Assembly: GCA_021772565.1 (NCBI GenBank)
Contig: JAJFLR010000022.1
Coordinates: forward strand, 1-47,473
DNA: 47,473 bases
Direction of reading: 5' to 3'
Origin: Opitutales bacterium
Lineage (GTDB): Bacteria > Verrucomicrobiota > Verrucomicrobiia > Opitutales > JAJFLR01
Positions 34,396-46,385 of this stretch are shown here, in pieces; the stretch's first letter is position 1, and every line of letters starts with the position of its first letter. The position numbers and the translations under genes are program-made. A model generated the notes under the pieces. That model was not told the origin of the DNA. It saw only the letters and a program-made list of their open reading frames with translations, and did not search any database.

Positions 34396-34891
34396 ATAAT
34401 TATTTTATTCAATAACGAAATTTTCTAATACAAACATGATTGACTACTTTTCAGTTTAGCAAATTCCTTTTCTGCCATACCCAAAAAGCAATATTTGAAT
34501 GTTATAAATAATGAATTTACTAAAATATTATCAGTTGCTGTTATTAACATTTTATTAATTTTTGTTCTAGACAACATAAGTTGTTTAACGTATATTGTTT
34601 ACAATTATTCACAGTCGCTAATTTAAGAATGCTCATCATCATGCAGACTAATAAATACCCCTTAGAGTATATCCACAATACTCCAAATAGATTAGAAATA
34701 ATTTTAGGCATTAAAAAATTTTCACAACCCACTTTTCTCAAATTTTTTAAGCCAATACCCGGCCACACATAACAATATTTAAAATTTAACAAACACATTA
34801 ATGATACAGAGTTATAAATAATTTTATAACGTTTACTAAATTTGGTTTTTTTAAATTAAAATAATAATTAATAAATAGAAAGGTAAATATA
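34396..34891. other. Gene-free divergent intergenic region
   Basis: About 500 AT-rich bases separate aspS from the first PEP-CTERM gene, which are transcribed away from each other. I see no credible gene or RNA. A weak palindrome ACAACATAAGTTGT (34571-34584) is followed by TTGTTTAAC and TTGTTTACA repeats that could be a regulator-binding area. The region must hold promoters for both neighbours. Confidence 0.4.
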
Positions 34892-35617
34892 ATGAATAAA
34901 ATGAAAGTTACTAAAAATATGAAAAATAGAATTAATAAATACACAGCCGGAACACAGAGTCTGCTATTAGCGACTGGGGCTTTTGCAGCAGCACAAGACA
35001 CAGATGCAACTGTAGTACCATTGTCATTACCGGGAACGATATTGAATCACACATTTGACCTCACAAATGGGACTCAATACGTTGACTATGCAGTATACGG
35101 CTTTGGGGTAAATGGCACTTTGCGGTTTTATGGGTTTGATAATGGAATCACTGTTAAAATAGTTGGCCTGGTTCCGATGGCACAGGTCTATGTAAAGACA
35201 AATACCAACTCGTTTCAAAATTATGATGCAAAAATATTTAATCCAGGAGATTTGGTATCAACTATTAGCGATGTCACAGGTGGCTACAACACGATAAATT
35301 ACAATCTGACATCGATTCATTTTAATGGAAATGAGCGTTCGCCCTGGACAAGTGCTCATAGCGACGTTGCGTTAGGTTTTGTCACACAAAGTAATCATGC
35401 CGGATTCATCAACATAAATTGGGACGCAGCAAACAATGCCATGACTGTTCTCGGCGGCGCTTATGAAAATGTTTCCGGGCTGGCAATAACGGTGACATCG
35501 GCTATTCCCGAACCTGCAGATTACGCTGCTGCACTCGGTCTCGGTGCTCTCGGACTGGCGTATTACCGCAATCGCCGAAATTTAAAACAACGAGCAAAAA
35601 TTAAATCAATCAATTAA
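34892..35617 (+). CDS. PEP-CTERM surface protein, paralogous family member 1
   Basis: The 241-residue protein has an N-terminal targeting region with basic residues and a hydrophobic stretch (KYTAGTQSLLLATGAFAAAQ), then a secreted beta-rich body. Its core RSPWTSAHSDVALGF and GFININWDAANNAMTVLGG recurs in three other proteins here. The C-terminal sorting signal is PEPADYAAALGLGALGLAYY followed by basic residues. PEP-CTERM tails are processed by exosortase and direct proteins to the envelope or exopolysaccharide. The start is supported by AGAAAGG upstream. No exosortase gene is in this window. Confidence 0.88.
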   Translation: MNKMKVTKNMKNRINKYTAGTQSLLLATGAFAAAQDTDATVVPLSLPGTILNHTFDLTNGTQYVDYAVYGFGVNGTLRFYGFDNGITVKIVGLVPMAQVYVKTNTNSFQNYDAKIFNPGDLVSTISDVTGGYNTINYNLTSIHFNGNERSPWTSAHSDVALGFVTQSNHAGFININWDAANNAMTVLGGAYENVSGLAITVTSAIPEPADYAAALGLGALGLAYYRNRRNLKQRAKIKSIN

Positions 35618-35641
35618 CAATTAATAGAAAGGATAAAAATC

Positions 35642-36307
35642 ATGAAAATAGAAATTAATAAAAATAACGTATCAATTAATAAAAGACTGAATCAGTTCGC
35701 TGTCGGGTCTCGGAGTGTCGCGGTATTAGCAGGAGCTGTTGGCACTGCTATTACAGCGGACGGTTCCGTGGTCAACCTAAACCTCGGGACTTTGTCAAAC
35801 AAGACGTTTAAAGCTGACGGGACCGGAACCGGTGGTGGATTTGGGGGCGTGTATTTCACTTTTGCAGATTCCAGTAAAATTAGATTCTACGGCTATAATG
35901 ACCAGATACAAATTAACGGGGGAAACAATGCATACACATTCCAATATGCCATCTTATCTGACAATGCCATATACTATTCGTCAAATTCGACCGTCAACGG
36001 TTCAAGGACACAAACCACAACAGCAAAACTTGCCTATAATGGTAATAATCTTGGTTCATGGACCACGAATCGCTTGAACGGTGCTATCGGTTTCAAGACC
36101 GGAGATGATAAGTTTGGTTTTTTCCGTGTCTCATGGGTGGCATCGACAAAAACGTTAACCGTATTGAGTGGCAAAATTGAAAGTGTTGCTAATACTGCTA
36201 TAGCCGTCCCCGAACCAGCTGAATACGCGGCGGCGCTCGGCCTGGGAGTAATTGGGTTAGCTTATTATCGGAAACGCAAAGGATTAAACAAACGGCTTAG
36301 AAAGTAG
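35642..36307 (+). CDS. PEP-CTERM surface protein, paralogous family member 2
   Basis: The 221-residue protein shares with member 1 the N-terminal pattern (QFAVGSRSVAVLAGAVGTAI) and the core GSWTTNRLNGAIGFKTGDDK then WVASTKTLTVLSG. Its tail is PEPAEYAAALGLGVIGLAYY followed by RKRKG. It lies 24 bases after member 1 and is preceded by the same leader, AGAAAGGATAAA. The repeated leader and gene ends indicate that the genes arose by tandem duplication together with their intergenic DNA. Function beyond surface localisation is not visible. Confidence 0.87.
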   Translation: MKIEINKNNVSINKRLNQFAVGSRSVAVLAGAVGTAITADGSVVNLNLGTLSNKTFKADGTGTGGGFGGVYFTFADSSKIRFYGYNDQIQINGGNNAYTFQYAILSDNAIYYSSNSTVNGSRTQTTTAKLAYNGNNLGSWTTNRLNGAIGFKTGDDKFGFFRVSWVASTKTLTVLSGKIESVANTAIAVPEPAEYAAALGLGVIGLAYYRKRKGLNKRLRK

Positions 36308-36339
36308 TTAGAAATTGGAATTTAGGAGGATTACATATC

Positions 36340-37080
36340 ATGAAAAAGGAAGTTAAACAAAGTATTCAATTAAAAAATAATATAAATATCATGAATAAAT
36401 ATAACAAAATAATGAAAAATATAGTTAATGCAATTCGAACTGTTATCGTGGTGACGATAACATCCGGATTGAATACAGTAGCGTCAGGTGCACTGAATAT
36501 CAATGTCACTAGTAGTGGAACAGGTTCCACTACCTGGACGTTTTCAGGTTCGACAAATACGGCAACTACAGGAACGGTTAGACCAACCGGAGATCCGTCA
36601 TTCAACTTTGAGGATTCGATGTCGTTTGATATTGATGGAGGTGGAGCTTTAACCACTTCATTTATGGCAAATGCCTCGTCGATAACAAACAGGTTGTTCA
36701 ACGTTGGCTCCGGCACGGCATCGATTACAATCGGTACGGACACAAAGTCAATTACACAACTGTTCTTAAATAATAACAGCGACCCCAATCAGGATGAATT
36801 TGGCATCCGTGTGAGTGATCAATTGATCTATAATCTGGAACAGGCGACAACATGGACTGGAGCTATTGTAGTGCCCGTAGATTTTAGTGATCTGATAGTT
36901 GGAACATATTTTAATACGGCAAATTTTGGCGGCCCGGCTTTTTCAACCGGCCCCAATGCTGTTGTTTTGAATATTGTGCCGGAACCATCTACCTACGCAA
37001 TTCTAGCCGGATTGAGTGCTCTAGGGCTGGTCTATTATCGCAAACATCAATGTCAAAACTGCAATCGAGTATTAAATTAA
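36340..37080 (+). CDS. PEP-CTERM protein, unrelated body
   Basis: The 246-residue protein has the tail PEPSTYAILAGLSALGLVYY but not the shared core of its neighbours. A long N-terminal stretch precedes the hydrophobic signal (IRTVIVVTITSGLNTVASGA). The body is Ser/Thr/Gly-rich and predicted beta-sandwich. AGGAGG about 11 bases upstream fixes the start. It lies in the same operon-like string between members 2 and 4, so the cluster carries mixed cargo for one sorting route. Confidence 0.85.
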   Translation: MKKEVKQSIQLKNNINIMNKYNKIMKNIVNAIRTVIVVTITSGLNTVASGALNINVTSSGTGSTTWTFSGSTNTATTGTVRPTGDPSFNFEDSMSFDIDGGGALTTSFMANASSITNRLFNVGSGTASITIGTDTKSITQLFLNNNSDPNQDEFGIRVSDQLIYNLEQATTWTGAIVVPVDFSDLIVGTYFNTANFGGPAFSTGPNAVVLNIVPEPSTYAILAGLSALGLVYYRKHQCQNCNRVLN

Positions 37081-37121
37081 ACTAATCAATTAACAATCAA
37101 TATAAAGAAAGGATAAATATT

Positions 37122-37814
37122 ATGAAAAAGGAAATTAATAAAAAGTTAAAACAGTTTGCTAATGGGTCTAAAAGCTTGGCAGCGGTAACCGGATACATAC
37201 TCGCGGCAAACAGCGTGGATGGCGCTCTAGAACAGATTAGTCTCTCAGCTTTTTCTGGAGACTTAACGATGAGTGCATCTGAATCCTATCGGAAGGTTGT
37301 CGTGCCGTTAGCCTTTACTGGTTCCACCGATTCGGATGACCTAATCTTTTTCCGTTCGGATAACAATCCAAATGGGAGCCTGCTATTCTCGTCTGGATAT
37401 GGTTCTGACGCTGGTTTCGTTTCATCAGGTTCTGTTCCTCAACTTTATTCGAGAGGTTCAAGCATAGATGGTACTAAAGATGCCGCAACTGATCATGCAT
37501 ACTTTGTTGCTTCTGGTGGATCGTCTAGTCCATGGGATTCTGATCAAACAGATGTAGCAGTTGGTTTCCACACAGGTGATAGTAGATTTGGTTATGTAAA
37601 TATTAATTGGGTAACAGCAACAAAAACAATAGAAATTAAAAAAATTGTGATTGAGACAAGTACTGGTGTTGCAGCACAATTTGCAGCAGTACCCGAACCG
37701 GCAGATTACGCTACAGCACTTGGACTAGGCGCAGCCGGACTGGCGTATTACCGCAATCGCAAAAACATAAAACAACGAGTAAAAATCAAATCAAATCAAT
37801 CACTTAACAATTAA
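37122..37814 (+). CDS. PEP-CTERM surface protein, paralogous family member 3
   Basis: The 230-residue protein again has the N-terminal pattern (QFANGSKSLAAVTGYILAAN) and core SSPWDSDQTDVAVGFHTGDS followed by GYVNINWVTATKTIEIKK. The tail is PEPADYATALGLGAAGLAYY with RNRKNIKQR after it, almost the same as member 1. The leader AAGAAAGGATAAATATT matches that of member 2. DNA similarity runs into the spacer after the gene, pointing to a recent duplication. Confidence 0.87.
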   Translation: MKKEINKKLKQFANGSKSLAAVTGYILAANSVDGALEQISLSAFSGDLTMSASESYRKVVVPLAFTGSTDSDDLIFFRSDNNPNGSLLFSSGYGSDAGFVSSGSVPQLYSRGSSIDGTKDAATDHAYFVASGGSSSPWDSDQTDVAVGFHTGDSRFGYVNINWVTATKTIEIKKIVIETSTGVAAQFAAVPEPADYATALGLGAAGLAYYRNRKNIKQRVKIKSNQSLNN

Positions 37815-37834
37815 TAACAATAAATAAAAATTAT

Positions 37835-38470
37835 ATGAAAATGATCAGTATAAATAAAATTAATCAAATGGTTATACTTTTATTAACCATATTGTTAAAC
37901 AGTATAGCTAGTGGGGCAGTAACTATTGGAACGTTAAATGTAACCGTCAATACTGACGGGTCTAATTTAAATTCAATATTTTCAACCACCGGAAGGAGTA
38001 GTGATATTCCTTGGGAAATTATTGGCGGATTTAATGATACACCAGTTTTATCAGTTGATAGTCAAACTTTCGTAGATGATTGGGCGGTTTCGTGGAATTT
38101 TGCTTCTTTTAGTTTTGCCAATGTGCAAAGTGGTTCTATTAATATTACAAACTTTGGCGGCAGTGGTCTTAGTGGAGGAGTTTATGTTGGTGATTCAATA
38201 ACGCAAACAGTTAATACAGCAATACAGAGTTCAGGTGCCGCGGCCTTTGCCGATAATGGTGCACTTTGGGCTTTTCAGCCGACACCATCTGGATCTATCT
38301 TTCTGGGTAATATTATTGGGACATTTTCTGGCACGCTTACAGCTATTGATTTAAATGTTAATTATAATTTAACTATTGTACCTGAACCTTCTATAATTGC
38401 ATTAGTCATCGGTGTGTTTGTTGTAGTTTTAGTCATGTTACATCGCGGTAAGCGGAATCGATTTATATAG
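37835..38470 (+). CDS. PEP-CTERM protein, unrelated body
   Basis: The 211-residue protein has a signal peptide (MVILLLTILLNSIASGAV), a Gly/Ser/Thr-rich beta body and a short tail, PEPSIIALVIGVFVVVLVML followed by HRGKRNR. The motif is recognisable but the helix differs from the AAALGLG type. It lies 20 bases after member 3 and is the last gene before a terminator. It does not share the paralogue core motif. Confidence 0.82.
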   Translation: MKMISINKINQMVILLLTILLNSIASGAVTIGTLNVTVNTDGSNLNSIFSTTGRSSDIPWEIIGGFNDTPVLSVDSQTFVDDWAVSWNFASFSFANVQSGSINITNFGGSGLSGGVYVGDSITQTVNTAIQSSGAAAFADNGALWAFQPTPSGSIFLGNIIGTFSGTLTAIDLNVNYNLTIVPEPSIIALVIGVFVVVLVMLHRGKRNRFI

Positions 38471-38525
38471 AGCTTGTAGGTTATAGGGAGACTAGCTGGC
38501 AGGAAAAGAGATTCATATTGGGAGA

Positions 38526-38560
38526 AAGCTCCTGACACTATGTTGCCAGGGGCTTTTGTT
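38526..38560 (+). terminator. Rho-independent terminator after the first PEP-CTERM gene string
   Basis: AGCTCCTG pairs with CAGGGGCT (one G-U pair) around a short loop, and the stem is followed by TTTTGTTT. It lies about 60 bases beyond the stop at 38470 and marks the end of the 34892-38470 transcription unit. The gap from 38561 to 38779 shows no gene. Confidence 0.75.
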
Positions 38561-38779
38561 TGGATAATTTATTTAATCACTATCGAGCGTAGCAAAACCT
38601 CAACGAATGAAATGAGTTCCGAACGTAATGACATGCGAACCCATAACGATTGAATGCGAATTAAACACAGATTTTTTAAATATTATATCATACATTCGTT
38701 AAAATTAAAAACCATCTTGACATAGTTACTGTTTTACGTAATTTCTCTCTCTTTAAAACTATAATAATTTAAACTAACC

Positions 38780-39469
38780 ATGAATAATAAAATAATTTCA
38801 ATTCCTGCAAAAATATCAAAATACAATCTTGCCTCACAAAGTTTAGCAGTAGGAGTTGGCATGATAGGTATCAGCCAATCGACTGATGCAACCATAACCG
38901 CACTAAATTTACCGGGAACGATTGAGAATGTTGATTTCGTCGAAAATGATTCGCCCAGTCAATTCGTAGTTTACAACTTGGCACTTAGCACGACCGACAC
39001 TACTGATGTATTTAATTTCATAGGACAAGGTAATTACGTAGGAATTACCGGTGGTGATGGAACCACTATTAAATTAGCTACTAATAGTAATATAAATTAC
39101 GACCCAAAATTATTTAATATTGGCGATAGTATTAACGTTACAAGTAATGCTGCAAATGGATATAATGTTGAAAATTTATTTTATAATGTAATATCGTATG
39201 GAAATAGTGAACGTGCGCCTTGGACATCCGATCAAACAAATGTAGCGATCGGATTTGTTAGTGGTGATAACCAACCCGGGTATTTTCTCATTAATTGGGT
39301 TGTCGCGACTGAAACAATGACCGTGCTAGGTGGATTTATTGAAACTTCAGGATCAAGTATAACTGTGGCTGCTGTTCCTGAACCATCTGAATACGCTGCT
39401 GCCCTCGGGCTGGGTGCTACGGGACTCGCATATTATCGTAAGTTAAAAAGTAGAAAAAACCGACCTTAA
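38780..39469 (+). CDS. PEP-CTERM surface protein, paralogous family member 4
   Basis: The 229-residue protein carries the N-terminal pattern (KYNLASQSLAVGVGMIGISQ), the core RAPWTSDQTNVAIGFVSGDN then WVVATETMTVLGG, and the tail PEPSEYAAALGLGATGLAYY with basic residues. It also shares LNLPGTI near residue 45 with member 1. It follows a terminator and ends at another, so it is a separate transcription unit. No clear Shine-Dalgarno sequence precedes the ATG. Confidence 0.87.
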   Translation: MNNKIISIPAKISKYNLASQSLAVGVGMIGISQSTDATITALNLPGTIENVDFVENDSPSQFVVYNLALSTTDTTDVFNFIGQGNYVGITGGDGTTIKLATNSNINYDPKLFNIGDSINVTSNAANGYNVENLFYNVISYGNSERAPWTSDQTNVAIGFVSGDNQPGYFLINWVVATETMTVLGGFIETSGSSITVAAVPEPSEYAAALGLGATGLAYYRKLKSRKNRP

Positions 39470-39516
39470 TAAATTTGTAAGCAGAAAGTTTATTTTAGAA
39501 TATAAGATTTATTTAT

Positions 39517-39551
39517 AAAAAGCCCCAGACAGAAATAGTCTGGGGCTTTTT
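39517..39551 (+). terminator. Strong Rho-independent terminator
   Basis: AAAAAGCCCCAGAC (39517-39530) and its complement GTCTGGGGCTTTTT (39538-39551) form a perfect 14-bp stem with a seven-base loop and a T-run. It ends the transcript of the preceding PEP-CTERM gene. The remaining gap to 39760 contains no gene I can support. Confidence 0.92.
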
Positions 39552-39760
39552 GTTTGTAGAGATTTAATTAAATGAGATTCTTCTTACGACCTCTCGAATA
39601 TGAGTACAGGAATCAATCAGGATAAAAAATTCTATAGCAGTATTAGATTTATAAAAGCCCCTTAAAAAACATGAATAGCATCTATCAATAATCTCCGAGT
39701 AATCTGTCACTTAATAATTCAGTATTGATTCTCCAAGTAAAATTTTCAAACTACTCATAC

Positions 39761-40231
39761 ATGAACAAAAGATTAAGTCTATTTTTAATTATCCTGTTAA
39801 CTTCACAAATATGCATCACCGCTAAATCAAAATTAGTTTCCGGACAAATTGAGAGTTACAAAAAACAGGAGGCTGAAATAAATAAAGCGATAAAGTATTC
39901 TGAAAAAGAGTATAAGCAAGTTGTAGCTGTCGTAAAAGATCTTGAAAATAAGAAACGAAAATTACAGTCCTCAATCGATGGAATTAGCATATCAGGAAAT
40001 TATGAAAGTTTACCCGATACTACTGCTCAAAAAAGGGTTGTAAAAGATTATACTGACTTGGCAAACGCTCTAAAGAAATTTGGCCTGAATTTTTTAAACA
40101 AGCAGGAAAAAACAAATAAGGAATTTGGTGAGTTGTCCGCTTCTGTAGAAAATATAATATCTAAATTTGAGCAGTATCGATCAATATATCAACGGAAGTC
40201 AGATGAGATTAACAGCAATGAAAAATTGTAA
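39761..40231 (+). CDS. Small secreted coiled-coil protein
   Basis: From the ATG at 39761 the protein has 156 residues. A signal peptide comes first (MNKRLSLFLIILLTSQICIT). The rest is charged and helical with heptad-like spacing (QIESYKKQEAEINKAIKYSE; LENKKRKLQSSIDG), so it is probably a periplasmic coiled coil. The frame is open upstream to 39725, but that adds residues before the basic signal region. It overlaps the next PEP-CTERM gene slightly. I do not recognise a family. Confidence 0.72.
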   Translation: MNKRLSLFLIILLTSQICITAKSKLVSGQIESYKKQEAEINKAIKYSEKEYKQVVAVVKDLENKKRKLQSSIDGISISGNYESLPDTTAQKRVVKDYTDLANALKKFGLNFLNKQEKTNKEFGELSASVENIISKFEQYRSIYQRKSDEINSNEKL

Positions 40232-40919
40232 TCTAATAAAAACTATTACCTCTATATCCATTCTGCTATCACTCAGTTCAAATTTATTTTCCGAGAGTAT
40301 GAGCTATACAGATAGAACGTCATTTTTGGCTGATATGAATGTTACTAATACATCAACAATAAATTTTGATACTATCAGCGTTGGGACTGACTTAACAAAC
40401 CAAACAATAAGTGGCGTGAAATTTGAAGCGCCCGGAACTTCTCCACTAGAAGTTGTCGATGGCGAAACATTAGTTAGAAGCACATTATTCCCCTCATCAG
40501 GAGCGAATGTTTTATCTCCCGGTGGCAGCAGCACTTCATTAGAAAATGATGATTTACGTTTGGTATTCAATTCACCAGTGAAGGCAGCTGGTCTCGATAT
40601 TGTATTCGATGTGCCGGATGGAGCTTCATTTGTCAGTATAGAATTTTTTGATGAATCTAATAACAGTTTATTTACCAACTCATTTATTCCGGCACCGAGT
40701 GGATCACCGGGTTTTCAATTCATGGGGTTTGCTTCTGACACTGCTATAATAAAGAGTATTTTATTAAATGAATTTGATGGTACCGCATCAGACGATCACG
40801 TTGCCTACGATACTATCACTTTCACGACAAGTGTCATTCCTGAGCCTTCAACTTATGCATTATTGTTGTCTGTAATTGTAAGCTCAAAAATTATTTTTAG
40901 CAGATTCAAAAATAGATAA
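40203..40919 (+). CDS. PEP-CTERM protein
   Basis: A signal peptide (LIKTITSISILLSLSSNLFS) is followed by a secreted body of about 190 residues. Its pattern NQTISGVKFEAPGTSPLEVV and AGLDIVFDVPDGASFVSIEF resembles the jelly-roll-like domains often seen in PEP-CTERM proteins. The tail is IPEPSTYALLLSVIVSSKII followed by FSRFKNR. GGAAG four bases before the ATG at 40203 supports that start, but an ATG at 40218 is also possible. The gene overlaps the coiled-coil gene, so the two are probably co-translated. Confidence 0.82.
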   Translation: MRLTAMKNCNLIKTITSISILLSLSSNLFSESMSYTDRTSFLADMNVTNTSTINFDTISVGTDLTNQTISGVKFEAPGTSPLEVVDGETLVRSTLFPSSGANVLSPGGSSTSLENDDLRLVFNSPVKAAGLDIVFDVPDGASFVSIEFFDESNNSLFTNSFIPAPSGSPGFQFMGFASDTAIIKSILLNEFDGTASDDHVAYDTITFTTSVIPEPSTYALLLSVIVSSKIIFSRFKNR

Positions 40920-41101: not shown

Positions 41102-41863
41102 ATGCACATCACCAAACTAATTAAAATAATAAGTAAGCAAATATTTTATATCTACATTATCCCCCTATCTTGCACAGCAAATTTATCCACAGGAGACTTG
41201 GCATTTATAGGTATTAATCATGATTTTGCACTCGTGGCTCTCAACCCAATAAGTTCAGGTGAAACTATTTATTTTAGAGACGAAGAATGGGATGGCACTG
41301 AATTTAATAATCCGAACGCTGAAGGAACGTTACAATGGACTACTACATCAAGTATCTCTAAGGGAACGATTATTACATTTTCAGATGTGAGTAATTCTGC
41401 CGGAGCAAGCACCGGAACTATTTCAGAAATAGTAAATGGCTTCGGTCTGTCAAATGGCGGCAACAGTATTATAGTTTTTGTTGGCAGTGACGAAGATAAC
41501 CCAACCACATTTATAACCGCAATCGCAACCAAACCAACTGATCTCGATTCGAATGCTGCTGATAATGCAACACTAAATGGAACCGGGCTAACACTTGGAG
41601 TAACCGCTCTAGTACTAAGCTCTGGAAGTGACGGTGGAGCATATTCCGGAAATCGGAATGACGAATCTAGTTTTTCAAGTTATTCGTCAAAAGTGAATAA
41701 CGTTGCCAATTGGACTGATGTTGGGAATAGTGGAAATGGGGAAAGTTTACTGCCATTCGATTCAACATCGTTTACTATTATTCCTGAGCCAAAATTAGTT
41801 ACGTCAATTTCAGGAATAGTTTCACTTGGAATATTAATCTACTCGAAAAATATGCTCAGCTGA
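41102..41863 (+). CDS. Secreted protein with degenerate PEP-CTERM tail
   Basis: The 253-residue protein has a short signal region (IFYIYIIPLSCTANLSTGDL) and a body of the type FIGINHDFALVALNPISSGE then TIYFRDEEWDGTEF. That pattern recalls the extracellular beta-sandwich proteins often annotated near lamin-tail or esterase-like proteins. The C-terminus IPEPKLVTSISGIVSLGILI with YSKNMLS keeps the PEP core but has only one basic residue after the helix. Exosortase processing is therefore uncertain. The gap 40920-41101 is AT-rich and holds no gene. Confidence 0.72.
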   Translation: MHITKLIKIISKQIFYIYIIPLSCTANLSTGDLAFIGINHDFALVALNPISSGETIYFRDEEWDGTEFNNPNAEGTLQWTTTSSISKGTIITFSDVSNSAGASTGTISEIVNGFGLSNGGNSIIVFVGSDEDNPTTFITAIATKPTDLDSNAADNATLNGTGLTLGVTALVLSSGSDGGAYSGNRNDESSFSSYSSKVNNVANWTDVGNSGNGESLLPFDSTSFTIIPEPKLVTSISGIVSLGILIYSKNMLS

Positions 41864-42741: not shown

Positions 42742-43614
42742 CTACCCGAACCAGGCAGTTCCTGTTTTTTTTAATAAACGTGCACAAAAAATTGTGCTAA
42801 GTAAAATCAGACTAAATTTCGAAGACTCAGGAATTGTCGTAACTTGATATCCCGATACTGCTATAATAGAATTAATTTCCGAGATATAGTTTGGAACAAA
42901 TGAATCGAAAGTTGTAACCTGTAATCCAGTTGGAGATGCAGCAGTATGGGTGCCGGTAATTGCTAAACTCCCATTAAAACTCACGAACGATGGACTGCCG
43001 GAATCACCATTTTCACCAAATGCATCATCGATTGCACCTGTTGTATTATCAAAAATAAAACTATAGGCTCTTGTTGAATTGAAAGAAAATAAATCTCCGA
43101 ACGAATTAATAACCCCCACACCCATACGAGCAACTTTTCCATAGACCAAAAGATTGAGACCGACATAATCAGTTTCACTTTCCAAATCTAGCAGCGGGTA
43201 AAATGAAATTGCCTCTGCTTCATCGATCGGGTTGGCAAACTCACCAATAAATATATCCACATTCTGACTCAACTCATTTTGAATATTGTGTATGGCACTC
43301 ACCGCATAGGATTTTAATATCCCATCGCGATTAAAAAAGTCTATAACATTACCCACATTCGGTTTATTATGATTCGCTCCAATAAAATGCTGAGGTGAAA
43401 TCATTGTGTAGCTAAAATTTGAATTTGTCTGTTTCCACCCAACTCCAGATAAATCTAATGCACTAAGAAAAAAGTTATTGTTTTCAACAGGACTGGTTGG
43501 GTATCCGGAAGAAAAACGATTGTGACGATCAGTATCTAAATTTCGAATACCAAGGCCAAATAAGTTTGATACAATAATAAAATGAAGTATGAATAATTGA
43601 AAATATATTTTCAT
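42742..43614 (-). CDS. Secreted trypsin-like serine protease with degenerate sorting tail
   Basis: The 290-residue protein has an N-terminal signal peptide (MKIYFQLFILHFIIVSNLFG). A candidate catalytic triad is H82 (FIGANH), D120 (NVDIFIGEF) and S205 (NGDSGSPSF), in the order of trypsin-like proteases. The C-terminus, TIPESSKFSLILLSTIFCAR followed by LLKK, keeps IPE and a hydrophobic helix but has lost the second proline of PEP. It is transcribed away from the CotH gene. A surface-attached processing enzyme is a reasonable guess; its substrates are unknown. Confidence 0.8.
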   Translation of the reverse strand: MKIYFQLFILHFIIVSNLFGLGIRNLDTDRHNRFSSGYPTSPVENNNFFLSALDLSGVGWKQTNSNFSYTMISPQHFIGANHNKPNVGNVIDFFNRDGILKSYAVSAIHNIQNELSQNVDIFIGEFANPIDEAEAISFYPLLDLESETDYVGLNLLVYGKVARMGVGVINSFGDLFSFNSTRAYSFIFDNTTGAIDDAFGENGDSGSPSFVSFNGSLAITGTHTAASPTGLQVTTFDSFVPNYISEINSIIAVSGYQVTTIPESSKFSLILLSTIFCARLLKKTGTAWFG

Positions 43615-43721: not shown

Positions 43722-46385
43722 ATGTACGAACTGCGCCAAAACAGGAAAAAGTGTTTAATAGGAATAATTTCAATTTTCGTAATTTTAATTATCTCTAACG
43801 TTCATGCTAAAAAACTCTTGGGATTAATACCAATCTACATAAGCGAAATTTCTGCGAGTGAAGGAGTGTATCCAGACAATCTCCTTGATGAAGATGGAGA
43901 ACAAGTAGACTGGATTGAAATTCATAATGCTTCTGATATACCTTGTGATTTGACTGGATGGTTTCTAACAGACAATAGAAGAAAACCTTTAAAATGGGAA
44001 TTCCCCAAAGGATCAGTAATTAAAGGAGATCAATACTTGATAGTTTTTGCCAGTGGTAAAAATCGTCGTAATCCGGAATTGCCACTGCACACAAATTTTA
44101 AAATCAATAAAGAGGGCGAAATCATTGCTTTGATTAAACAAGTAAACGAAGAAGGATTAATCATCGACGAAATTAAACTACCGAATCAACATCCTGATAT
44201 TACTTATGGGATAAAAATTGAAAACAACAATTTGCATGCAGGATATTTTTTTACGGCAAGTCCCGGTAAGCCAAACTCAAAGTTAAGAAGTGTGAATCAA
44301 ATACCCAATGTCATCTTTAGTAAATCAAGGGGTAAGTTTCAAAATGCAATAACGCTGGATCTAAGTTGTCCTGATCAGCAAGCAAATATTTATTACACAT
44401 TAGATGGTAGTATACCAACTGAAAGTGATTTAGTGTTCAAGAACCCTATCACAATAAAAGAGACCTCAATGGTTCAAGCGCGAGCTTTTAAGCAAGGAAG
44501 TATCGCATCCAACATAATTACCCATACCTATATTTTCGGAGATTTAGCAAAAAAATTGCAGCATATTCCGATAGTCAGTATCGTAACAAACTCGGAATCT
44601 CTTTATGGTAAATCTGGCATTCTTGGCATGTCAGACAAAAGTAGAAATGGAAAGTTTGATCGAGAATGGAAACATACCAAAAAAGAATCAGACTTTTTTA
44701 ATCCGATTAAAAGAGGCAGGGCTTGGGAAAAATTTTGTTCTGTCGAATTTTTTAATTCTGACAAAAAAATCGGTTCCAATTTCGATGATCAATATCAAAT
44801 TAATTGCGGCATTCGATTGTCGGGAAGTGATTACCATCGTCTACGTCTAACGCCAGACAGTAAGCCATCATTTCGACTCTATTTTAGGTCGGAGTATGGT
44901 CAGACGCACCTCCCCCCCAATTTAAAATTATATGGAACTAATAAAAAAATTAAGCGATTGAGTCTACGTTCAGGCCACGATGTTTCAGGATTAATAAATT
45001 CAATAGTTGTGCATGATGAGCTAGGTCGACGATTGTGGCAGGATATGGGACACCCTTCCATTACAGGGAACTTTGCCCATGTTCTTCTCAATGGGAAATA
45101 CCTCGGATATTATAATTTAGTCGAACGCATTGATCGTTACTCTATTTCTGGATATGATAATTTATCGTATCAAAAAAATAGTAATAAAACTGAAGGTCTG
45201 GATATTATAAAAAGAAGAGGTGAAGTTAACGAGGGTGACAATCAATCGTGGAATGATTTGCTAAACTTGGCAAAAATTGGGAATTTATCCGGTGACAATA
45301 AATTATCAGATATTGCGAGTGCGCTTGATCTTACTAATTTCATAGACTATCTAATCCTTAATTTGTATGCAGTAAATTCGGATTGGCCATTCAATAATTG
45401 GACTGCATTTAAAACTAAAAACAGCGATAGCAAATTTAAATTTATCGTATGGGACACCGATGAAGCATTTGGCTATCCGAAGTTTGGTTTAAATTACGAT
45501 CATATCGCAAAACAATTTCATCTAATTAGTAAAACAGACAATGAACTGCCGATCTTATTTAGGGCTTTGTTGAACAGTCAGGACACCTATTCACTAGTAC
45601 CAATAAAAGCAGAATGGAAAATCTTTAAAGGCAAGATTGAGCCCTCAAAACAAAAGTTAGCATGGACAAAACCTAGTTTTGATGATCGCAACTGGCAAAA
45701 GGGCCCCGCCGGCATTGGTTACAATACCAAACGTAAAACTAAGAATAGTAGGGACATTGACAGACTAAATACAAATTTATCAGACATGAAGGGAAACTAT
45801 GTTTCTGTTTACCTTCGTCATAAATTTAATTTGGAAAATAATCTGACAAATAAAATTAATCAGCTTATGCTAACAGTTAGTTACGATGATGCATTTGTCG
45901 CTTATCTAAACGGAATTGAAATTCACCGTACCAAAGGGTTAAGAGGATTAGACAATCCACCCCGCTTTAATCAAAAAAGTTCTGTTTCACATTCAGCAAA
46001 TGGATGGCATCACACATATGACATATCCAAATATATTTCGATTTTAAAAGAAAAAGATAACGTGCTCAGTATTCAGGTTCACAATAGCAGTGCAAAAAGC
46101 TCAGACTTAATTATCATACCTCAATTAACAGCTTATACTTTTTCTAAAGAGCATGCATTTCGAAAATTGTTTTCCGAAAGAGTAAAAAAACATTTTTTTA
46201 ATGACGGGGTGCTGACGCATAAAAATTTATTAAGACGGTTTAGTGAAATCAAAGAGACAATAATTTCGGTTGATCCTAATTTTGATGATTCAGATGATTA
46301 TAATTTATCGTTGGAAAAAGAATGGATTCCTAAAAGAAGTAATATTCTTCTTAAACAATTAAAATCGCACGGGTTGTATTTTTAA
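43722..46385 (+). CDS. CotH-type protein with lamin-tail and chitobiase-like domains
   Basis: The 887-residue protein has a signal-anchor helix (about 14-32) and a lamin-tail domain (about 36-165; VDWIEIHNASDIPCDLTGWF). A chitobiase C-terminal-like beta domain follows (about 200-270; NIYYTLDGSIPTESDLVF). The CotH domain lies at about 280-610, with GIRLSGSDYHRL, HVLLNGKYLGYYNLVERIDR and WDTDEAFG. A galactose-binding-like domain ends it (about 630-790; VSYDDAFVAYLNGIEIHR). CotH proteins are atypical kinases that phosphorylate spore-coat proteins in Bacillus; in bacteria of this type the role is unknown. The architecture is typical of large envelope proteins in PVC and Bacteroidota genomes. No PEP-CTERM tail is present. 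Confidence 0.88.
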   Translation: MYELRQNRKKCLIGIISIFVILIISNVHAKKLLGLIPIYISEISASEGVYPDNLLDEDGEQVDWIEIHNASDIPCDLTGWFLTDNRRKPLKWEFPKGSVIKGDQYLIVFASGKNRRNPELPLHTNFKINKEGEIIALIKQVNEEGLIIDEIKLPNQHPDITYGIKIENNNLHAGYFFTASPGKPNSKLRSVNQIPNVIFSKSRGKFQNAITLDLSCPDQQANIYYTLDGSIPTESDLVFKNPITIKETSMVQARAFKQGSIASNIITHTYIFGDLAKKLQHIPIVSIVTNSESLYGKSGILGMSDKSRNGKFDREWKHTKKESDFFNPIKRGRAWEKFCSVEFFNSDKKIGSNFDDQYQINCGIRLSGSDYHRLRLTPDSKPSFRLYFRSEYGQTHLPPNLKLYGTNKKIKRLSLRSGHDVSGLINSIVVHDELGRRLWQDMGHPSITGNFAHVLLNGKYLGYYNLVERIDRYSISGYDNLSYQKNSNKTEGLDIIKRRGEVNEGDNQSWNDLLNLAKIGNLSGDNKLSDIASALDLTNFIDYLILNLYAVNSDWPFNNWTAFKTKNSDSKFKFIVWDTDEAFGYPKFGLNYDHIAKQFHLISKTDNELPILFRALLNSQDTYSLVPIKAEWKIFKGKIEPSKQKLAWTKPSFDDRNWQKGPAGIGYNTKRKTKNSRDIDRLNTNLSDMKGNYVSVYLRHKFNLENNLTNKINQLMLTVSYDDAFVAYLNGIEIHRTKGLRGLDNPPRFNQKSSVSHSANGWHHTYDISKYISILKEKDNVLSIQVHNSSAKSSDLIIIPQLTAYTFSKEHAFRKLFSERVKKHFFNDGVLTHKNLLRRFSEIKETIISVDPNFDDSDDYNLSLEKEWIPKRSNILLKQLKSHGLYF

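Follow-up and report, generated by a model that had tools for sequence, protein, structure and literature searches.

The window analysed here is a stretch of 47,473 nucleotides from an Opitutales bacterium (assembly GCA_021772565.1, contig JAJFLR010000022.1), and the subject of this work is a group of four PEP-CTERM proteins encoded in it by genes that start at 34892, 35642, 37122 and 38780. Sequence comparison indicates that these four proteins are homologous over their whole length, body included. They are an old local cluster, divergent members of a genome-wide family of ~40 copies, and our results suggest that the members of this family are probably exosortase-sorted surface or matrix proteins, the ends of which have been homogenised, or the bodies exchanged, by recombination.

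The window proteins and their family in the genome

All four genes lie on the forward strand (+). Member A (34892..35617, 241 aa) would carry an extended signal peptide, MNKMKVTKNMKNRINKYTAGTQSLLLATG, a beta-rich body and a PEP tail, PEPADYAAALGLGALGLAYYRNRR, and the same architecture is predicted for member B (35642..36307, 221 aa) and member C (37122..37814, 230 aa) from their open reading frames (ORFs), the alignment and the body-only scores. Member D (38780..39469, 229 aa), assigned from ORF, alignment and tree, is the sister of A (support 99/90), and the grouping of all four in the tree is weakly supported (53/34). In a MAFFT alignment of the four proteins, the N-terminus, core and PEP tail that the preliminary description had called shared all align, with invariant columns in the core (W, G-F, G, W) and in the tail (PEP..YA.ALGLG..GLAYYR). 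When residues 1-45 and the part from PEP to the C-terminus were cut off and the remaining bodies were scored against shuffles, all six pairs gave z = 12.3-28.2, which excludes that only the tail is shared. The two proteins interleaved with them had been described as unrelated, and this was borne out: a PEP-CTERM protein at 36340..37080 (+), which has its own type of spacer, and a PEP-CTERM-like protein at 37835..38470 (+), with an IVPEPS tail and an ordinary short signal peptide, both scored ~0 against the four bodies and have the tail alone in common with them. That the family owes its likeness to the sorting tail alone, with convergent bodies, is hardly credible. Matches to the family profile elsewhere in the order do lie mostly in the tail, and the source genome has other proteins in which a PEP tail follows an unrelated body, but the body-only scores, a body profile (A4) that recovers copies in the source genome at E down to 4e-57 and a body model with a pLDDT of 94 all argue against it.

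The genes from 34892 to 38470 are closely packed on one strand in an operon-like arrangement. Synonymous sites among the four family genes are near saturation in every region, and synonymous excess, defined as synonymous identity beyond the codon-usage expectation, is weak and found at the extreme ends (N-terminal region 0.04, middle -0.08, core 0.03, tail 0.12). The cluster is therefore old, recent tandem duplication of the four genes is ruled out, and the word "expanding" that was first used for the family does not apply to them.

The source genome is a 3.57 Mb draft in 124 contigs. A profile built from the four window proteins gave 39 strong matches in it (E<=3e-34), of which 37 are nearly full-length, as well as tail-only or broken fragments, on many contigs and far beyond the interval in which the family was first noticed. 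Scanning with PF07589 listed 81 PEP tails, many of them weak, so that ~40 of roughly 80 listed tails are carried by one homologous body family. Nearly all full-length copies have an intact reading frame and their own start, and most have a ribosome-binding site and a leader (start codons were assigned by inspecting ribosome-binding sites). A terminator-like hairpin of their own follows within 110 nt of the stop codon in 21 of 29 dispersed copies, compared with 3 expected from shuffles. The search for exosortases that the preliminary description had proposed returned six exosortase-like loci, all of which match TIGR04178 above its cut-off of 23; the locus on contig C28 is the sole one of the six above the TIGR02602 (8TM_EpsH) cut-off. 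At another locus (L002, C67:4421-8155), two divergent exosortase genes adjoin on opposite strands, with a family member ~2 kb off.

Broken or truncated copies, with an in-frame stop, a split frame, a disrupted tail or the tail alone, were observed at L011 (C61), L075 (C113), L072 (C57), L077 (C71) and L064 (C33). On contig C122 (L068, C122:10700-21300, positions 1961-2794), a unit that joins ~181 nt from the 3' end of a family gene, PEP tail included, to a 73-nt GGGACTTTCCAGTCCC hairpin element is present three times at a spacing of ~290 nt, partly as tail-only fragments. Decayed fragments resembling the C-terminus of reverse transcriptase (RT) and dispersed intergenic repeats were seen by eye a few hundred bases upstream of L020, L021, L023, L060 and L071. 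Four RT loci were found in the genome, with group II intron-type ORFs among them by appearance, and those at C96:7696 and C98:41199 (L087, L088) are near-identical, one full length and the other shorter, near a contig end. Retroelement-driven spread of the family was considered and rejected, as no intact RT was tied to any family gene. A diversity-generating retroelement, which the variable body had brought to mind, was likewise set aside, although no search aimed at a template repeat was made.

Leader hairpin and predicted export signals

The family alignment comprises 33 members. Its consensus copy opens with a leader hairpin and a ribosome-binding site, followed by an extended basic N-terminus, the motif (R/K)LxKYxxGSQSLAVLSGVLGQTA and an A-x-A-like cleavage site; a variable middle of ~120 residues, the core GAIGFKxGDxxFGFxNVSWxxxTKTLTxLGG and the tail VPEPSEYAAALGLGALGLAYYRRRPGNKxRxK complete it. 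Sixteen leaders could be aligned, and a 10-pair helix (model R1) is formed in 84.6% of cells. Seven of its 10 pairs are changed on both sides, with a covariation score of 0.347 against 0.163 in shuffled alignments and at most 0.189 when the helix was slid, a result that is supportive rather than independent because knowledge of the hairpin guided the trimming of the leaders. The R1 covariance model has 17 matches in the genome at E<1e-3, all 17 directly upstream of family genes, and the match at C61 belongs to a family gene that had been left out of the training set. The covarying hairpin leader is thus almost confined to sites before family genes. It is a candidate for an RNA element that regulates exosortase substrates in Verrucomicrobiota, where, as Haft et al. 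state (PMC1569441), an upstream motif known from Proteobacteria is not shared. A possible orphan leader hairpin (E 0.34) was noticed at C103:5164-5260 (L108), with no obvious family gene beside it; it adjoins a short gene pair, perhaps a toxin-antitoxin module.

At the protein level, P206 and E207 of the PEP motif are invariant in the 33 members, P208 nearly so, and the tail reads LGLG..GL.YYRRR. By inspection, full-length members show a basic, hydrophobic and A-x-A-like pattern at the N-terminus, where the model has a helix; among the PEP-CTERM proteins of the genome that do not belong to the family, many have a short signal peptide of the ordinary kind. The dispersed copies C14, C56, C20, C1, C40, C122 and C8 score above the PF07589 cut-off of 20.7. 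With NF038129 and NF038126, window members reach at most 23.0 and 20.3 bits against cut-offs of 65 and 50, and the best E values in the scan of 33 members were 4.9e-6 and 1.8e-5. An AlphaFold model of the body, made from the family alignment, is beta-rich (pLDDT 94, pTM 0.89), and the full-length model has a pLDDT of 71. Structure comparison with the PDB gave nothing at E<=0.001 (best 0.14 for the full-length and 0.33 for the body model), comparison with viral structures gave no significant match (best E 0.016), and a sequence search of the PDB gave no match. The predicted body is therefore unmatched among the solved and viral structures with which it was compared, and we make no claim of a new fold.

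PEP-CTERM proteins are exported and are thought to be processed by exosortase and to act together with exopolysaccharide, according to published accounts (PMC1569441, PMC9850573), and one of them promotes floc formation (PMC9850573). By the same route, the extended signal peptide of the family, a basic K/N-rich stretch ahead of the conserved motif, would direct passage through Sec, signal peptidase would cut after the A-x-A site, and the beta-rich body of ~160 residues would fold in the periplasm. Exosortase would then recognise the PEP, hydrophobic and basic tail, and the mature body would reach the exopolysaccharide or outer surface, to be set free or anchored there. The most likely role would be that of structural or adhesive matrix proteins; PEP-CTERM proteins that form flocs (PMC9850573) make an adhesive or matrix function plausible by analogy.

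Separate histories of ends and bodies

Synonymous divergence in the dispersed copies is strongly unequal along the gene. The synonymous excess is 0.64 just after the start (0.64-0.37 over the 5' end), has fallen to ~0.2 where the signal region ends, is ~0 in the middle and core and rises again to 0.13-0.34 in the tail, with permutation z values of 14.1 for the N-terminal region, 2.2 for the core and 12.7 for the tail. An ordinary, old paralogous expansion without recombination, in which the ends are kept as functional signals for translation, Sec and exosortase and the body drifts faster, could also account for conserved ends. The signal peptide and PEP tail would be functional and are conserved at the amino-acid level, tail similarity within a species is documented for PEP-CTERM proteins (PMC1569441), and the tail value at four-fold sites (0.39) exceeds the codon-usage expectation (0.35) by a small margin. 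We nevertheless consider this account unlikely, since the synonymous excess is found at both ends and not in the core, tail similarity tracks the distant leader and not the adjacent core, and the trees conflict.

The second of these points rests on similarity matrices. Matrices of the leader and N-terminal region (r = 0.65), leader and tail (0.55), N-terminal region and tail (0.68) and middle and core (0.55) are correlated, whereas those of core and tail are not (0.06) despite adjacency, and leader and core give 0.10. After removal of row effects by centring, leader and tail still give 0.25-0.29, compared with -0.07 to 0.03 for core and tail. As for the trees, groups defined by their bodies are rejected when tested as clades on the end DNA (p-AU 0.019 and 9e-67). 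In a tandem trio on contig C20, which is the clearest case, the ends join at 100/96 and the bodies reject a common clade (p-AU 1.8e-12). Identity between the second and third genes of this trio is 0.92-0.97 ahead of the predicted signal-peptidase site and 0.25-0.64 within the body, and returns to 0.81-1.0 at TVTAVPEPS and beyond; where the signal peptide is predicted to be cleaved, it drops from 0.94 to 0.39. Such sharp breakpoints are not readily given by drift along a single genealogy; judging from these sequences, conversion of the ends or exchange of the body would produce them. The body groups, the C20 trio and the copies used in the restricted test were picked after looking at the data, and for this reason the p-values attached to them are indicative.

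Recombination of ends and bodies is thus our preferred reading. In the dispersed copies, the leader hairpin, signal-peptide codons and tail codons would be homogenised by ectopic recombination as the bodies diverge, and at least the C20 trio would combine ends and bodies of neighbouring genes of different ancestry, with breakpoints at the export boundary and the tail, either because a body was swapped into the frame or because the ends were converted around it. A number of observations weigh against this interpretation. The window four show little or no homogenisation of their ends and are without the hairpin leader, two of their spacers match R1 weakly, and their tails score 12.4-16.8 bits with PF07589 (cut-off 20.7) and at most 10.5 with TIGR02595 (cut-off 16). 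The draft state of the genome means that some copies end at contig borders. Centring leaves a correlation of 0.32-0.50 between the matrices of the adjacent N-terminal and middle regions, a sign that exchange is not free. When distant copies are compared, the codons of the middle region are aligned with uncertainty, and this by itself would depress the synonymous excess of that region; in the core, where the alignment is good, the excess is nevertheless ~0, and the pattern therefore holds without the middle. Part of the 5' gradient could be due to selection on the nucleotide sequence around the start codon, but this would explain neither the tail nor the tree conflict.

Conserved ends that flank a divergent centre, truncated tail-only and broken copies (C122, C33, C71, C61, C113) and mosaicism of body and ends are also what would be expected if dispersed copies served as gene-conversion donors to expressed loci, as in vls, pilS or msp2, with the conserved ends as recombination substrates. 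Such antigenic or phase variation, the former raised as a possibility in the preliminary description, was left unsupported by our analysis and appears quite improbable. Full-length copies nearly all have their own intact frames, mostly with ribosome-binding sites and leaders, and the majority of dispersed copies have their own terminator-like hairpin; judged from gene layout, no arrangement of silent donors and a single expression site was seen, fragments are few, and the window four are not homogenised. Moreover, the bodies are synonymously saturated and any exchange is therefore old.

A stronger version of recombination between ends and bodies would see the family as ~40 transcription units with a frame homogenised by recombination, into which mature domains would be swapped with the export boundary as the point of exchange; this we find possible but doubtful. 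The shared frame in that scheme would consist of the covarying 5' leader hairpin, extended signal peptide, PEP tail and, often, terminator. If true, it would let a lineage install a new surface domain behind a standard frame for secretion, sorting and expression.

Window surroundings, relatives and known systems

Leader and spacer DNA had been described as duplicated along with the window genes, which holds in part. The leader of member A (34832..34891, +) contains a ribosome-binding block, ...AATTAATAAATAGAAAGGTAAATATA, in common with the spacer between A and B and the spacer before C; it has no family-type hairpin, and its R1 match is weak (E 2.9). The A-B spacer (35606..35641, +) shares AATTAACAATTAATAGAAAGGATAAAAAT with the spacer before C (37069..37121, +; p 0.001), which is related to both the A-B spacer and leader A, and an AT-rich block, AATTAA..AATA..AGAAAGGAtAAA, recurs in the spacers before 35642 and 37122 and in the leader of 34892 (p 0.001-0.004). 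The leader of 38780 has a single match, the leader of 34892 (p 0.008); none of the other window leaders and spacers compared matched the spacer ahead of 36340. A weak R1 match at 35575-35644 (E 0.036) falls, by inspection, in the ribosome-binding part. After the five-gene cluster (34892-38470), a weak terminator-like hairpin at 38524..38557 (+) is followed by TTTTG only and is not clearly above the shuffled background (z -1.7); member D is followed by a strong intrinsic-terminator-like hairpin, AAAAAGCCCCAGAC..GTCTGGGGCTTTTT, at 39515..39553 (+; -28.2 kcal/mol, z -8.3). The PEP-CTERM island runs on at 40218-40919 (IPEPSTYALL) and 41102-41863 (IPEPK), and farther along are a trypsin-like GDSGSP protein with a degenerate IPES tail (42742-43614, minus strand) and a secreted CotH-kinase protein with lamin-tail and chitobiase C-terminal domains (43722-46385). 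The AspRS of the window is closest (~72%) to those of Opitutia and other Verrucomicrobiota.

Outside the source genome, the family had no match at E<=1e-10 in 51 other genomes of the order, and a scan of named genomes by a single tail pattern, which is weak evidence, gave no family match. The body-only profile at E<=1e-6 had the source genome as its sole match among 388 genomes of the phylum. In 373 genomes of the order, many family-profile matches are tail-only and a few relatives share core and tail. One such genome, G307, from another family of the order, encodes four related PEP-CTERM proteins at L123, an independent tandem array in which the N-terminus is of the SYRSAARSLGAKSAGA type. Like the window genes, these Opitutia relatives are local tandem copies with a core and tail of the form G.I.F..GD..(F/Y)G(F/W)I.......TIL.G.(Y/F)......I...PEP; their N-terminus is of the SYRSAARSL type and, unlike family members, they match at E 1e-17 or weaker, mostly in core and tail. 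The family is lineage-restricted as far as sampled, in a sample without another genome of the same taxonomic family.

Extended signal peptides with Y-S ... G-x-x-S before the hydrophobic core are typical of the YSIRK-G/S surface proteins of Gram-positive bacteria. The predicted signal peptide of the family is also extended and has the same arrangement, a resemblance only, as the host here is diderm and the YSIRK model had no match among the Pfam results of the 33 members at E<=0.1. PepA (NF033554; PMC9850573) has the same export-signal architecture and matches three of the 33 members below threshold at E<=0.01 (best E 7e-6); member C of the window reaches 25.9 bits (E 7.5e-6) against a cut-off of 80. 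In the literature available for searching, nothing was found on gene conversion with PEP-CTERM, nor on an extended signal peptide with exosortase. Also among the closest known systems are the PEP-CTERM/exosortase proteins (TIGR02595, PF07589) described by Haft et al. (2006; PMC1569441). They have an N-terminal signal peptide, which is predicted in the family too, and share with the family a C-terminal PEP motif, hydrophobic helix and basic cluster, bodies with no known domains, the presence of exosortases and a high copy number in each genome, the genes being mostly single and preceded by long upstream regions. Unlike in that general description, here one body family has its own extended signal peptide, hairpin leader and tail, and ends and bodies appear to have separate histories. 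Haft et al. report expansion of tails within species, with 65 copies in V. spinosum, and the passages available do not describe body-frame mosaicism (PMC1569441). PEP-CTERM tails are known to resemble one another much more within than between species, on seemingly unrelated proteins. In the present family the bodies are still alignable, and therefore the histories of ends and bodies can be compared directly. The family suggests a testable reason for this likeness of tails within a species: ends may be homogenised, or bodies exchanged, by recombination.

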